Shown: piece by piece, positions 853 to 11,688 of the stretch | Numbering within the stretch: the stretch's first letter is position 1 | Layout of the letters: each line of letters opens with the position of its first letter | Source of the DNA: a bacterium | GTDB taxonomy: Bacteria; Actinomycetota; UBA4738; HRBIN12 | Assembly: GCA_023251895.1 (NCBI GenBank) | Contig: JAHEXX010000006.1 | Coordinates: 5,429-39,638, forward strand | Length of the DNA stretch: 34,210 nucleotides | Reading direction: 5' to 3' | Translations under genes and position numbers: made by a program | Notes under the pieces: model-generated | The model's database searches: none | Told to the model about the DNA's origin: nothing | The model's input: the letters and a program-made list of their open reading frames with translations, nothing else

Positions 853-1830
853 ATGGCAGCACCGACATCCGTCCCTCTGCGGGCCGGCGCCAGCCTTGGT
901 GCGGGCCGGCGACCGGTTCTGCTCGGGTTGGCCGGTGACAGCGCATCGGGCAAGAGCACGCTGACGCGCGGCATCGAGTGGATCCTCGGCCCGGACCGGG
1001 TCACCGGGATCTGTGCGGACGACTACCATCGCTACGACCGCAAGCAGCGGATGGAACTGGGTCTGACGCCGCTCGACCCGTCCGCCAACGATATCGGCCT
1101 CCTGGAGCGGCACGTCCGGCGTCTGGCGACGGGCCTGACCGTCGTCAAGCCCGTGTACGACCACTCCACGGGGGGGTTCGGGGAGCCCGAGCGGGTCGAG
1201 CCGCGGGAGATCGTCATCTTGGAGGGGCTGCTGCCCTTCCACACCGCGGCCCTGCGCGATCACCTGGATGTGAAGGTCTACTTGGACCCGGAAGAGGAAC
1301 TTCGGCACCGCTGGAAGATCGAGCGGGACTGCGCGGAGCGGGGCTACCTCATGGAGGAGGTCGTGTCGGATCTTCGCCGCCGGGAGGCGGACGCCGCCAC
1401 GCACGTGCGTCCCCAGCGTGACTTCGCCGACCTGGTCGTGCGGTTCCACCGGCAGGAGGCTGACGATCCATGGACGGGCCTCGGCTCCCGCATCGCGTTC
1501 CGGCCGACCCTGCCGTATCCCGAACTCCGGGACCTGGTGGCGTCCCTCCCCAGGAACGGCGATCGTCCGGTCCGCTTCCTCCTCGGGCGCGACGCCGGTT
1601 GGCCGGACCCGGTCGTAGAGATCGACGGCGACTGCCCGCCAGCCCTCGGCGCCCGTATTGAGGAGGCGGTGTGGCGCAGTCTGGTGCCCGGCCACGGTCT
1701 GGACCGGGACCAGATCGGCCGCTACCGACTGCCCACCGGCGAGGAGCGCCGGGGCGAGGCGCTCGCCCTTGCCCAGCTGCTGATCGTGTTTCACCTGGCA
1801 GGGGCGCTGCGGGGCGCCCTCGAGCTCTAA
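853..1830 (+). CDS. prk: Phosphoribulokinase/uridine kinase family protein, phosphoribulokinase-like
   Basis: A 325-residue P-loop kinase. The Walker A loop GDSASGKST lies at residues 28-36 and the catalytic-acid region ICADDYHRYDR at 53-63. Further on come LTPLDPSAND, VVKPVYDHSTGGF, IVILEGLLPFH, VKVYLDPEEELRHRWKIERD, a second acidic/arginine block (SDLRRREADAATHV) and DFADLVVRF. The order and spacing match the plant/cyanobacterial class of phosphoribulokinase, which makes ribulose 1,5-bisphosphate from ribulose 5-phosphate and ATP. The upstream transketolase would supply the pentose phosphate. No RuBisCO gene is in the window, so a Calvin cycle role is an inference and another sugar-phosphate or nucleoside substrate is possible. 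The ATG was chosen because a TAACAT box lies six bases before it. A strong hairpin follows the stop. Confidence 0.82.
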   Translation: MAAPTSVPLRAGASLGAGRRPVLLGLAGDSASGKSTLTRGIEWILGPDRVTGICADDYHRYDRKQRMELGLTPLDPSANDIGLLERHVRRLATGLTVVKPVYDHSTGGFGEPERVEPREIVILEGLLPFHTAALRDHLDVKVYLDPEEELRHRWKIERDCAERGYLMEEVVSDLRRREADAATHVRPQRDFADLVVRFHRQEADDPWTGLGSRIAFRPTLPYPELRDLVASLPRNGDRPVRFLLGRDAGWPDPVVEIDGDCPPALGARIEEAVWRSLVPGHGLDRDQIGRYRLPTGEERRGEALALAQLLIVFHLAGALRGALEL

Positions 1831-1906: not shown

Positions 1907-3028
1907 ATGGGCGTGTCATTCGGGTTGCCGCGCATGCACAAGGAGGCCGGGGAGCGGCGCGACTTCCTGCCCGGCCTCGTCACGTTCCTCGATCGCTCTG
2001 GGGCGGACGGGATCGTCCTCGAGGAGGGGTACGGTGCCGGGATCGGGGTCGAGCCTGCCGAGTACCTCTCGGCGTCGGATCGGGTCAGGTTCGGCTCCCG
2101 CGAGGAGTGCCTGGCCCAGGACGTGGTCGTCGTGATCCGGTGCCCGGATCACGACATCTTGCCGAAACTTCGGGCCGGTGCTGCGCTGGTGTCGATGCTG
2201 CACTTCCCCACCCGGCCGGAGCGGGTGGCCCTGCTCTCCGACCTGGGCCTGCGGGCCGTGAGCCTGGACTCGATCGTCGACGAGGGCGGGCGGCGGCTGG
2301 TGGAGAACCTGGCGCTCACCGCATGGAACGGCGTACATGCCGCGTTCCGGGAGATCCAGCAGATCCACCCGCTCTTCGACCACCCAAGCCGCCGGCCCCT
2401 CCGGGTGACCTGCCTGGGCTCGGGCGCGGTCGGGGGGTTCGCGATCCACGCGGCGACCCGGTACGGGGATCCCCTCCTCCGGGAGGAGCTCGTGGCGAGG
2501 AACGTGCCGGGCGTCGAGGTCACGGTCGTGGACTTCGACCTCACCTGGCACCAGGACTACATGCTGGCTCGACTGGAGCGGACCGACCTGCTGATCGATG
2601 CGACCCAGCGCCGGGACCCCAGCCAGCCCGTGGTGCCGAACCCGTGGATCGCAGCCCTGCCCGAGGACGGGGGGATCCTGGACCTCGCCGTGGACCCCTA
2701 CGACCTGGATGCCGTGCCCCCCAAGACGAAAGGCGTTGAGGGCATCCCGGGCGGGGATCTGGACCGGTACGTCTTCGCGCCGGACGACGCCGCGTACGAC
2801 CTGCTCGACCGCCGGATCGACACGCGGCAAAGGCGCCTGGCGCTGTCCTGCTACTCGTGGCCGGGCCTGCGTCCCCGGCGGTCGATGGAGGTCTACGGGG
2901 GGCAGATCGAGTCGGTCCTGCGATTGTTGCTTGGAAAGCCCCTCGATGCATGGGACCCGGAGTCCCCGTCCCACGAGGAGCGGGCCGTGGCGAGAGGGGA
3001 GTTGGAGCGATGGAAGGCCACACACTGA
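1907..3028 (+). CDS. AlaDH/PNT-fold NAD(P)-binding protein, first of a tandem pair, function unknown
   Basis: A 373-residue protein built like alanine dehydrogenase, transhydrogenase alpha and saccharopine dehydrogenase. The N-terminal domain has FGLPRMHKEAGERRDFLP (5-22), a GYGAGIG stretch, DVVVVIRCP (72-80) and LVSMLHFPTRPERV (94-107). A Rossmann domain follows with VTCLGSGAVGG (167-177). By eye, the conserved Arg near the N-terminus and the His of MLHF match catalytic positions of alanine dehydrogenase, but the usual KVKEP lysine motif is replaced by VIRCP. The C-terminus has EGIPGGDLDRYVF and SCYSWPGLRPRRSMEVYG, which I do not recognise from named enzymes. It overlaps its paralogue by 19 bases. 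Substrate is unknown; an NAD(P)-linked amino- or imino-acid dehydrogenase is the likeliest type. Confidence 0.6.
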   Translation: MGVSFGLPRMHKEAGERRDFLPGLVTFLDRSGADGIVLEEGYGAGIGVEPAEYLSASDRVRFGSREECLAQDVVVVIRCPDHDILPKLRAGAALVSMLHFPTRPERVALLSDLGLRAVSLDSIVDEGGRRLVENLALTAWNGVHAAFREIQQIHPLFDHPSRRPLRVTCLGSGAVGGFAIHAATRYGDPLLREELVARNVPGVEVTVVDFDLTWHQDYMLARLERTDLLIDATQRRDPSQPVVPNPWIAALPEDGGILDLAVDPYDLDAVPPKTKGVEGIPGGDLDRYVFAPDDAAYDLLDRRIDTRQRRLALSCYSWPGLRPRRSMEVYGGQIESVLRLLLGKPLDAWDPESPSHEERAVARGELERWKATH

Positions 3029-4131
3029 CGTTCGGCCTTCCCCGGATGCACGAGGAGGCGGGGGAACGGCGCGACTTCCTGCCGGACCTGGTGCGCACGG
3101 TGACCGACCTCGGCGTGCGCACGTTCGTCGAGTCAGGTATCGGCTCGGGCATGGGGTATTCGGATCTGGACTACCTCGCGGTGTCCCCACTGGTCGAAGC
3201 GGTCGACGAGGGCGCGCCGTACGCTCAGGACGTGGTGCTGGTGCTGCGCTCGCCGGACGAGAGATTCGGGCTCCTGCGGCGGGGCGCCACCCTGATCTCG
3301 ATGTTGCACTTCCCCACCCGCCCGGAGCGGGTGCACCTCCTGCGCTCGCTCGGCCTGGAGGCTGTGAGCTTGGACTCGATCGAAGACGATCGGGGGCAGC
3401 GGTTGGTCGAGGATGCCGCAGCCGTCGCTTGGAACGGTGTGGAGGCGGCTTTCGACGCTCTGGAGGATACGTACCCGAGGTTCTGGGATCCGGATCGGCC
3501 TCCCATCCACGTCGTGGTCATGGGCTGCGGGAATGTGGGGCGCCATGCCGTGGAGGCGGCGACGAAGTACGGGAGCCTGGACCGGCAGCGGCTGCTCTTC
3601 GAGAAGGGCGGGGACGGGGTGGAGGTCACGGCCATCGGTCGCAACCTGACCGGCCGGGAAGGCCGCATGCGGCAGCTGCTGGCACGGGCCGACATCGTGG
3701 TGGACGCCTCGGCCCGCGATGACACGTCGCGGCCGCTCATCCCGAACGGGTGGCTGGCGGAGCTGCCGGACCACGCCGTGATCTGCGACCTCGTCGTGGA
3801 TCCCTACCTGCTGCGCGACGACCCAGCCACGGTCCGCAGCATCGAGGGGATCCCCCGGGGGAACCTCGACCGATATGTCCTGGGCAGCGACGACCCGGCG
3901 TGGGAGACGACGATCCCGCCGGAGATCCCGCACGACGTCCGGCGGGTGGTCGTGTCGTGCTACTCGTGGCCTGGCGTGTACCCGAAGCCTTGCATGGAGC
4001 TGTACGGGACACAGCTCGACCCATTGCTCCGGGCGCTGATCCGGGCCGGCGGGGTGGCCGGGCTCCGGCCCGACGGCGAGTTCCACGAGCGAGCGCTGTA
4101 CCGGGCCACCCTCTGGGGCTGGCACGGCTGA
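3010..4131 (+). CDS. AlaDH/PNT-fold NAD(P)-binding protein, second of a tandem pair, function unknown
   Basis: A 373-residue paralogue of the preceding gene along its whole length. It has FGLPRMHEEAGERRDFLP (8-25), ESGIGSGMGYSDLDYL (41-56), DVVLVLRSP, LISMLHFPTRPERVHLL and a Rossmann glycine motif MGCGNVGRHA (171-180). The C-terminal block is EGIPRGNLDRYV then SCYSWPGVYPKPCMELYG. The ATG at 3010 aligns with the paralogue's start and has GGGGAG upstream; an in-frame ATG at 2857 would add 51 unrelated residues inside the previous gene. The 19-base overlap implies translational coupling and perhaps a hetero-oligomer. The glycine motif, GCGNVG against GSGAVG, shows the two copies have diverged. 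Reaction unknown. Confidence 0.6.
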   Translation: MEGHTLTFGLPRMHEEAGERRDFLPDLVRTVTDLGVRTFVESGIGSGMGYSDLDYLAVSPLVEAVDEGAPYAQDVVLVLRSPDERFGLLRRGATLISMLHFPTRPERVHLLRSLGLEAVSLDSIEDDRGQRLVEDAAAVAWNGVEAAFDALEDTYPRFWDPDRPPIHVVVMGCGNVGRHAVEAATKYGSLDRQRLLFEKGGDGVEVTAIGRNLTGREGRMRQLLARADIVVDASARDDTSRPLIPNGWLAELPDHAVICDLVVDPYLLRDDPATVRSIEGIPRGNLDRYVLGSDDPAWETTIPPEIPHDVRRVVVSCYSWPGVYPKPCMELYGTQLDPLLRALIRAGGVAGLRPDGEFHERALYRATLWGWHG

Positions 4132-9599: not shown

Positions 9600-10202
9600 A
9601 TGGCTTGGAAGCTCAAGGGCCGATACGTGACCGCGTGCTCGTGCACGAACGTCTGCCCGTGCTCGACGGCGAGCGCACCGCCCGACAATCCCGACGGCAC
9701 GACGAACTGTTGGGGCGCGGGTGTGTTCGACGTGCGCGAAGGGAACCTCGACGGCATGGACCTCTCCGGTGCCCGGGTAGGCCTCAAGGTCCACTTCCCC
9801 GAAGTCGTCTCGAACGGGAAATGGCAGATCGCCCTCGTGCTCGACGAGTCGGCGCCCGACGACCATGCGAAGGCGTTCGAGCAGATCTTCTCCGGGCAGC
9901 TCGGGGGACCGTTCGGCGACATGGCAGCGCTCGTGTCGGAATTCACCGTCGAGCGTGCCGCGCTCTCCTACGCGGACTCTGGGGTCGCCCTGGGGGACGG
10001 GTCGTTCGCGTACGAGCCGCTCCGGGGGCAGGACGGGAGCCCGACCACGATGAGCAATGCGGTCTTCGGGTTCGCGCCGGTGTTCGAGATCGGGACGGCG
10101 GCCGGCAAGCTCGAGGTGTTCGGTCACTCGTGGGACGCCTCCTATGGCGAGGCTGCCGATTTCGAGTATTCGAGCGAGATCCACGAGTCCATCCGGGCGT
10201 AG
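9600..10202 (+). CDS. DUF1326 family protein with a CxCx3CxC motif
   Basis: A 200-residue soluble protein of the DUF1326 family, with no known reaction. The N-terminus has LKGRYVTACSCTNVCPC, four cysteines at 13, 15, 19 and 21 in the pattern CxCx3CxC, a plausible metal site. The remainder matches the family in length and pattern (LSGARVGLKVHFPE, GKWQIALVLDESAP, AFEQIFSGQLGGPFGDMAAL, GHSWDASYGEAADFEYSS). A very strong Shine-Dalgarno, GAAGGAGGG, precedes the ATG. A second DUF1326 gene lies two genes downstream, with a DUF2182 membrane protein between. The grouping suggests one pathway, possibly handling a metal such as copper, but that is inference. Confidence 0.82.
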   Translation: MAWKLKGRYVTACSCTNVCPCSTASAPPDNPDGTTNCWGAGVFDVREGNLDGMDLSGARVGLKVHFPEVVSNGKWQIALVLDESAPDDHAKAFEQIFSGQLGGPFGDMAALVSEFTVERAALSYADSGVALGDGSFAYEPLRGQDGSPTTMSNAVFGFAPVFEIGTAAGKLEVFGHSWDASYGEAADFEYSSEIHESIRA

Positions 10203-10225
10203 CCCGGCCGACCCGAACGGGATGT

Positions 10226-11056
10226 ATGGCTGAAACGAGGTCTGACTCGTCGCGCCCCGCCCCGACCCTGCCGGCCCGGCAGATGGTCCCCGCGTGGGCC
10301 GCTCTCGTGCTGCTGGCCGTCTTGGCCTGGGTCGTCACCGTCGCCCAGGCGCGGGGGATGGGCGTCGGGCCGGGGACGATGGGCCTCAGCCTGCCCCTGT
10401 TCCTGGCCATGTGGGTCGTGATGATGGCCGCGATGATGTTCCCGTCGGTCGCCCCGATCGCGATCCTCTGGTCCAAGGTCATCCGCGGGAAGAGCAACGG
10501 GTTGGAGCGAACGTTCCGGATGGCCTCGTTCGTTGCCGGTTACCTCATCGCGTGGGCTGGGTACGGACTGCTGGCCTTCGCCGCGCTGCTCGGAACCGAA
10601 CAGTTGGTGGACGCGTCCCCGGAGGCCGCGAAGTGGCTGGGCGTCGGGATCTTCGGAGTGGGCGGCCTGTATCAGCTCACGCCGATGAAGGACGTCTGCC
10701 TTCGCCACTGTCGTTCGCCGATGATGGCGCTCATGCATTACGGCAACTTCAAGGGACGGTTCCGAGACCTTCGGGTTGGGACCCACCACGGGCTGTACTG
10801 CGTTGGGTGCTGCTGGGGGCTCATGCTGGTGTTGGTGGCCGTGGGCGTGATGAACGTCGCGGCCATGGCGATCCTGGCGGCCGTGATCTTGCTAGAGAAG
10901 CTGTGGCGCCGGGGACCGTTGCTGGCTCGGGTCGTCGGTGTGGCGTTCTTGACGATCGCGGTGATCGCTGTGTTCTTCCCGTCGATCCTGCCGGGGCTTC
11001 ATGCAGCGGGGGGCATGGCGGCCGGGGGCGGCATGGCCGGCTCGAGCGGGATGTGA
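10226..11056 (+). CDS. DUF2182 family integral membrane protein, putative metal-binding
   Basis: A 276-residue membrane protein with about six to seven transmembrane segments. Family signatures are MWVVMMAAMMFPSVAPIAI (62-80), YQLTPMKDVCLRHCRSP (149-165) and GTHHGLYCVGCCWGLM (185-200), followed by GVMNVAAMAILAAVILLEK. Cys158, His161, Cys162, His187, His188, Cys192, Cys195 and Cys196 cluster as a likely metal site. The C-terminal tail is glycine- and methionine-rich (GGMAAGGGMAGSSGM), as seen in copper-handling proteins, though this is only suggestive. The ATG at 10226 gives an N-terminal cytosolic stretch before the first segment. Its stop shares one base with the next DUF1326 start (TGATG), so translation is coupled. 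The biochemical function is not known. Confidence 0.82.
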   Translation: MAETRSDSSRPAPTLPARQMVPAWAALVLLAVLAWVVTVAQARGMGVGPGTMGLSLPLFLAMWVVMMAAMMFPSVAPIAILWSKVIRGKSNGLERTFRMASFVAGYLIAWAGYGLLAFAALLGTEQLVDASPEAAKWLGVGIFGVGGLYQLTPMKDVCLRHCRSPMMALMHYGNFKGRFRDLRVGTHHGLYCVGCCWGLMLVLVAVGVMNVAAMAILAAVILLEKLWRRGPLLARVVGVAFLTIAVIAVFFPSILPGLHAAGGMAAGGGMAGSSGM

Positions 11057-11688
11057 TGGCGACGACGCGCGTCGTCCCACCGTGGCAGATGAAGGGCGTC
11101 ATGGTCGGCGCCTGCAACTGCGATTGGGGCTGCCCATGCAACTTCCAGGCGCCTCCGACGTACGGCTACTGCGACGGTTTCTACTGCGTGTACGTGGAGG
11201 ACGGGGGCTACGGAGACATCTCCCTCGACGGGGTGAAGTTCCTGTGGGGTGGCCACGCTCCCGGCGCGATCCACGAGGGCGGGGGGACGTCGATCTTGGT
11301 CATGGACGAGGGCACGACCCCCCAGCAGCTCGAGGCGATCGACACCCTTCGCCGGGGGGACGGAGTCGGCTCACCGTTCGACGAGTTCGCCTCGGTGAAC
11401 GAGGTCTGGTACGAGCCGTTCCTCGCCCCCATAGAGATGGAGCTGAATGGCATCAGGTCCAAGGTGCGGGTGGGCGGCGGGTCGATCTACGAGCTCGAGA
11501 TCGATCGGGTGAAGAACCCCGTCACCGGGGAGGACGAGATTACGATCCTCGATCATCCCACCGGGTTCACGTCGACGAGGGCCGAGCTTGGGATGTCCAC
11601 CGTGGCTCGCTTCGCCGGCGAGCACGCGACGTACGACCACACCGGTAAGTACGCTGAGTACGCCGAGTTCTCCTACGCGGGGCCCTGA
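11056..11688 (+). CDS. DUF1326 family protein, second copy, CxCx3CxC motif
   Basis: A 210-residue DUF1326 protein. The N-terminus is MKGVMVGACNCDWGCPCNF, with Cys20, Cys22, Cys26 and Cys28 in the same CxCx3CxC pattern as the first copy, plus Cys39 and Cys44 in the next 20 residues. Later parts (GGTSILVMDEGTTPQQLEAI, GSPFDEFASVNEVWYEPFLA, YAEYAEFSY) follow the family. The ATG overlaps the stop of the DUF2182 gene by one base. The two DUF1326 copies differ strongly outside the cysteine motif, so this is not a recent duplication. They may form a heteromer around the membrane protein. Function unknown. Confidence 0.82.
   Translation: MATTRVVPPWQMKGVMVGACNCDWGCPCNFQAPPTYGYCDGFYCVYVEDGGYGDISLDGVKFLWGGHAPGAIHEGGGTSILVMDEGTTPQQLEAIDTLRRGDGVGSPFDEFASVNEVWYEPFLAPIEMELNGIRSKVRVGGGSIYELEIDRVKNPVTGEDEITILDHPTGFTSTRAELGMSTVARFAGEHATYDHTGKYAEYAEFSYAGP

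Follow-up and report, generated by a model that had tools for sequence, protein, structure and literature searches.

Known proteins of the AlaDH/PNT fold are either enzymes encoded by a single gene or one domain of the membrane transhydrogenase. In alanine dehydrogenase (AlaDH), Arg15 and Lys75 hold pyruvate while His96 and Asp270 are catalytic (PMC10401832), and in the M. tuberculosis enzyme Asp198 contacts NAD (PMC4691113). At the same place in the same fold, the NAD enzyme yeast LYS1 has an Asp and the NADPH enzyme human LOR has Ser-Arg (PMC9490328).

Here we describe two adjacent genes, alpha and beta, in a stretch of actinobacterial DNA of 34,210 nucleotides (referred to below as the window). 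The pair belongs to a branch of the AlaDH/PNT fold family that is uncharacterised and probably not that of alanine dehydrogenase, and a search of the literature for a description of such a two-gene pair found none. From the fold, the pairing, the gene order, the residue split and the conserved pockets we infer the cofactor use, a common substrate, a hetero-oligomer and the direction of reaction, and propose that the two genes make up an NAD(H)/NADP(H) dehydrogenase system, possibly heteromeric, that would act on an amino-acid- or opine-like carboxylate. We put the probability of this reading at slightly below one half (about 0.48).

An overlapping gene pair with the AlaDH/PNT fold

The alpha gene (1907..3028, + strand) and the beta gene (3010..4131, + strand, with its ATG at 3010) each encode an AlaDH/PNT-fold dehydrogenase of 373 aa; both open reading frames are intact and have the 19 bases 3010..3028 (+ strand) in common, as the initial annotation had stated. 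The junctions in relatives also commonly overlap, by 4 to 31 bases, or closely abut, and translational coupling at the 19-base overlap may be possible. The two chains are 46% identical across 371 residues and are the only two members of their family in the window's genome. A third AlaDh_PNT_N gene on another contig of the same genome scores far higher (163 bits versus 41-57 for the pair), so that the pair comes on top of a more typical AlaDH/PNT protein.

Both chains belong to the AlaDH/PNT fold. They pass the gathering score of Pfam AlaDh_PNT_N (PF05222, 30.4 bits) with 38.7 bits for alpha and 54.4 bits for beta. The C-terminal part is without Pfam recognition (for the C-terminal NAD domain PF01262 there is no match in alpha, and 15.2 of the 23 bits needed in beta), yet its fold is matched by Foldseek. 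The AlphaFold single-chain models (mean pLDDT 90.4 for alpha and 92.2 for beta) can both be superposed along their full length on AlaDH and on PntA domain I, with TM of about 0.6-0.7 and 14-21% identity, and a profile built from 28 homologues retrieves structures of AlaDH and PntA with E values of 1e-23 to 1e-11. Models, Foldseek and profiles thus agree with the earlier description of the pair as AlaDH/PNT-like oxidoreductases with the substrate left unassigned. Against the models of the named enzymes, the chains score 25.7 and 31.3 bits for the NCBIfam alaDH equivalog TIGR00518 (cut-off 391.85) and 17.7-45 bits for the NCBIfam pntA models (cut-offs 383-444), which would place them outside both alanine dehydrogenase and PntA as enzyme families.

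A putative active site common to both chains

The motifs GLPRMH..GERRDFLP, MLHFPTRPERV, GxGxxG and SCYSWPG..P...ME.YG that had been read from the sequence are all found in both chains. Seven residues of the last of these, the C-terminal signature (C315, W318, P319, G320, P323, M327 and Y330), are invariant in 28 homologues, so the signature is a family-wide feature and not due to chance. The full set of invariant residues comprises R18, R78, H99, R130, D263, R309, R310, C315, W318, P319, G320, P323, M327 and Y330. The lysine of the AlaDH motif KVKEP is indeed absent, with VIRCP and VLRSP in its stead, and every homologue has Arg at that position: the equivalent of AlaDH Lys75 is Arg78, invariant in all sequences of both the alpha and the beta clade. 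The equivalents of AlaDH His96 and Asp270 are H99 and D263, likewise invariant in both clades. AlaDH R15 aligns by sequence with the variable R17, whose neighbour R18 is invariant, and the carboxylate clamp may therefore be offset or rebuilt relative to AlaDH R15. Judged by these residues both chains look active, probably on the same strongly anionic substrate. We also considered one active chain with one degenerate regulatory chain; we rejected this because all putative catalytic residues are invariant in both clades.

Conservation of the pair in three phyla

Two copies of the family are found in 24 genomes, from Actinomycetota, Myxococcota and Chloroflexota. An alpha and a beta gene are present in 23 of these, adjacent in 21 and then always in the order alpha, beta; two genomes, G574 and G606, keep both types with the genes far apart. 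Among the Actinomycetota, 8 of 397 genomes (even draw) have the family, all eight with exactly two adjacent copies, and within the order to which the window's genome belongs it is found in 6 of 27 genomes, always as two copies. In the Chloroflexota 5 of 301 genomes have it, each with exactly two copies; a second draw added two two-copy genomes (G1189 and G1237) and two single-copy ones, one of which is a fragment at a contig edge. In the Myxococcota the family is present in 10 of 195 genomes and eight of the ten carry two adjacent copies, the exceptions being G866 with one copy and G807 with a disrupted pair. G399 is a further two-copy genome. Most genomes that have the family thus have two copies in fixed order, which gives the pair its obligate look and disposes of the possibility, raised with the initial annotation, that homologues would always occur singly.

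The disrupted copy of G807 (L079/L083) has an N-terminal half resembling alpha and a C-terminal half resembling beta, which lie in different frames with internal stops; it may have arisen by decay of a fused pair or by faulty assembly.

In a tree of the family all first genes group together, apart from the second genes (25 rows in the clade of first genes, support 95/94), from which it follows that one old duplication predates the spread over three phyla. Distances among the alpha sequences closely track those among the beta sequences (correlation of the two matrices r = 0.86, equalled in 0 of 2000 permutations), so that the pairs were inherited or transferred together.

A residue split at the cofactor site

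When columns that separate the clades were sought, at a threshold of at least 80% uniformity within each clade, three were found, two of them conservative Arg/Lys swaps and the third position 209. This position is Asp in 24 of 24 alpha sequences and Gly-Arg in 23 of 23 beta sequences, counts in which the pairs are non-independent observations and the split perhaps has two independent origins. The codons concerned are those of alpha D209-F210 (2531..2536, + strand) and, at the same structural place, of beta G210-R211 (3637..3642, + strand). In the AlphaFold models the position comes directly after the Rossmann strand behind the GxGxxG helix (residues 203-208 in alpha, 204-209 in beta), that is, at the end of strand beta-2, and profile-profile alignment sets the family's VTVVD on the VTILD of AlaDH (VTILDV), strand beta-2 Asp on Asp, the latter being Asp198 in the M. 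tuberculosis enzyme. As far as two residues can indicate preference, alpha is apparently NAD-type and beta apparently NADP-type. The rule at position 209 splits a family that is otherwise unannotated.

One two-copy genome, G401, has no alpha gene and instead carries two copies of the beta clade, in which the site reads GRN and EQN, respectively; the EQN copy appears to have regained the acid, which would be a second independent origin of the acidic type. As G401 has a Glu copy and an Arg copy, an acidic chain is accompanied by an Arg-type chain in every one of the 24 genomes with two copies.

Sites of NAD and NADP type in alpha and beta are also what a soluble NAD(P) transhydrogenase assembled from two domain-I-like chains would have, and the closest structures include PntA domain I. 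However, H99 and D263 are kept in both chains although domain I does not need them, the outgroup PntA sequences are without the His, and the vicinity of the pair contains neither a membrane part nor a domain III; we consider such an enzyme very unlikely.

Single-copy homologues

Single-copy homologues are found of the acidic type, in G1013 (where the contig spans the whole genome; selector residue E) and G1227 (D), and of the Arg type, in Acetoanaerobium (PR) and G405 (SR). Their existence implies that one chain can work alone and that a common oligomer is not required. Single genes of either flavour would be expected if alpha and beta were two independent homomeric isoenzymes made from one operon with no complex between them, the NAD form serving breakdown and the NADP form synthesis, and the unlinked genes of G574 and G606 and the location of acidic-type single genes in uptake or catabolic operons also fit. 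We think this somewhat unlikely, as the 21 adjacent pairs, from three phyla, have a fixed order and junctions that overlap or abut, which, like the mirrored trees, is rather what one would expect of subunits. The ancient duplication, co-retention, fixed order, overlapping genes and mirrored trees make a hetero-oligomer plausible, notwithstanding the single-copy homologues.

An oligopeptide-type ABC transporter lies beside the acidic-type single copies of both G1227 and G1013; no other set of neighbours on the same strand is found again in another phylum and would suit an enzyme operon. It suggests, as a weak but independent hint, that an imported amino-acid derivative is the substrate of the NAD form. 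The arrangement in G1227 (L112:4298-12818) is operon-like, with the transporter genes and the alpha-type dehydrogenase followed by a Fer2_4/Pyr_redox/DAO trio, for which the flavin opine dehydrogenase OdhABC serves as a comparison (PMC4575208). In G1013 (L107:2814-17616) the Glu-type copy is part of a long cluster of genes on one strand, which also encodes ABC transporter components, an AbrB-like membrane protein, a beta-keto acid cleavage enzyme (BKACE) and an SDR; by eye, aconitase-like, isocitrate-lyase-like and TctA-like genes are present too, and the cluster looks like an organic-acid catabolic operon.

The setting in G1227, a single-copy alpha homologue with an oligopeptide-type ABC transporter and an OdhABC-like trio (PMC4575208), bears on a further explanation, in which the pair is a saccharopine- or opine-type couple: beta would use NADPH to form an N-substituted amino acid, which alpha would then split with NAD, for a net transamination like that of LOR plus LYS1. 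The same switch from Asp to (Ser/Gly)-Arg distinguishes yeast LYS1 from human LOR (PMC9490328), and the motif D..DxGRRL together with the many invariant arginines would suit a tricarboxylate. Yet this opine context was met once, the catalytic Lys of LYS1 is an Arg in this family, and the profile match to LYS1, whose sequence was checked against PDB 2q99, is poor (E = 2.1 for 2q99; hhalign probability 2-43% versus 98-99% for AlaDH and PntA), so that we regard such a couple as quite unlikely. On the same tests we rejected membership of saccharopine dehydrogenase, striking as the motif resemblance is; the switch common to this family and LYS1/LOR speaks for similar working, not for membership.

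A lysine-fermentation dehydrogenase, prompted by the Acetoanaerobium homologue and by the BKACE neighbour in G1013, was also rejected, as no supporting cluster surrounds the Acetoanaerobium gene. The Acetoanaerobium noterae record itself (L106, NZ_CP154629.1) is 2.63 Mb long and is listed as a plasmid in PLSDB; it has uvrA- and uvrB-like genes and is presumably the chromosome.

Genomic surroundings

Upstream of the pair, and outside the proposed system, lies a phosphoribulokinase-family gene (853..1830, + strand), identified by blast and by NCBIfam PRK07429 (319 bits, cut-off 236). The C-terminal part of a transketolase is also in the window, its complete open reading frame being on the contig (608 aa as called), while the 124-aa protein downstream of the pair reaches 24.3 bits for Spore_YtfJ against a cut-off of 25. 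Two of the three neighbours named in the initial annotation, transketolase and phosphoribulokinase, are therefore as described, whereas the GerW label is weak.

The annotation had also raised a new pathway with phosphoribulokinase or GerW, which a survey of 32 loci does not bear out. The order phosphoribulokinase-alpha-beta is found again only in G050, a genome from the same family, and a GerW-like gene beside the pair in no other locus surveyed; the outcome that had been foreseen as counting against the idea, no link to these neighbours, is largely what the survey returned. A search for a shared partner among the 171 neighbour genes of these loci, by clustering and Pfam scans, found none. Neighbours vary by lineage and include AsnA with an NfnAB-like protein, DAHP synthase, MurT ligase, a major-facilitator transporter and a sodium/proton exchanger, among others. 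No RuBisCO large chain was found in the window's genome, which is 94% complete, and a Calvin-cycle link was dropped for this reason.

That the pair are ordinary alanine dehydrogenases, or belong to a phosphoribulokinase-linked sugar-phosphate pathway, is hardly credible. The AlaDh_PNT_N match and the adjoining phosphoribulokinase here and in G050 would agree with one or the other, but the alaDH equivalog score is 26-31 bits where 392 are required, the genome has its separate and much stronger 163-bit gene, phosphoribulokinase does not occur at the other loci and no RuBisCO was found in the genome. Taken together, sequences and neighbourhoods indicate that the pair is not a sugar-phosphate partner but a dehydrogenase system complete in its two genes, with one chain of NAD type and one of NADP type.

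Three observations on the surroundings stand apart from these questions. The window's genome has a phosphoribulokinase-family gene although no RuBisCO large chain was found in it; this gene adjoins transketolase, as does its counterpart in G050. In one actinobacterial genome an 801-aa fusion (L003:10409-12811) of a DHODB/ferredoxin-NADP-reductase-like part with a glutamate-synthase-small-chain-like part, NfnAB-like and another NAD/NADP coupling enzyme, lies directly downstream of the pair; this was seen once. At 9601-11688 of the window two cysteine-rich proteins (CSCTNVCPC... and CNCDWGCPC...) flank a membrane protein, in what looks like a small metal-related operon.

Proposed working of the pair

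In the two-gene dehydrogenase system that we favour, alpha and beta would be sister dehydrogenases from one old duplication, retained as a pair and probably present in one shared oligomer. The alpha site would take NAD(H) and the beta site NADP(H), with one and the same putative substrate site in both, made of an arginine-rich carboxylate clamp (R18, R78, R130, R309, R310) and the general acid/base pair H99/D263. Both chains would act on the same or a directly related small carboxylate, which may be an amino acid, an oxo acid or an N-substituted amino acid such as an opine; oxidation with one cofactor and reduction with the other would then link the NAD and NADP pools. A more specific and, we think, unlikely version is that the alpha-beta complex of Actinomycetota, Myxococcota and Chloroflexota is a soluble substrate-mediated transhydrogenase built of AlaDH-like chains only, in which a bound or channelled carboxylate would be oxidised at the NAD site and reduced at the NADP site.

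If true, a pair whose chains differ in the cofactor selector and agree in the putative active site would connect the NAD and NADP pools by way of a single substrate, in a manner that is new. The likely annotation of such genes as alanine dehydrogenase or transhydrogenase alpha is corrected.

Comparison with known systems

The OdhABC-type operons (flavin opine or D-hydroxyproline dehydrogenase) have the same domain make-up as the trio which, with the oligopeptide-type ABC transporter, lies beside the single copy of G1227, but theirs is a different, flavin enzyme; it is only a neighbour in G1227 and was not found next to two-gene pairs. Yeast LYS1 and the LOR domain of human AASS, both of the AlaDH fold, resemble the pair in their short Rossmann region, in the Asp versus Ser-Arg switch and in the motif D..DxGRR, and differ in that profile similarity is not significant, the catalytic Lys is replaced in the pair and there is no bifunctional fusion. 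PntA, domain I of NAD(P) transhydrogenase (PDB 1X13), shares the fold, and its profile similarity to the family is at least that of AlaDH. The family keeps the catalytic His and Asp, however, which PntA does not, no domain II or III partner genes adjoin the pair, and there are two domain-I-like chains with different cofactor signatures. Alanine dehydrogenase (EC 1.4.1.1; PDB 2VHX, 1PJB, 2EEZ) is alike in its full-length fold, the His96 and Asp270 equivalents, the GxGxxG motif, the Asp198 equivalent in alpha and the return of the chain to the C-terminal lobe. In contrast to it, the family is 17-20% identical, has Arg for Lys75 and a variable residue at the R15 position with an invariant Arg one residue on, and possesses a helix insert before strand beta-2, the SCYSWPG signature and a two-gene pair of NAD and NADP type.
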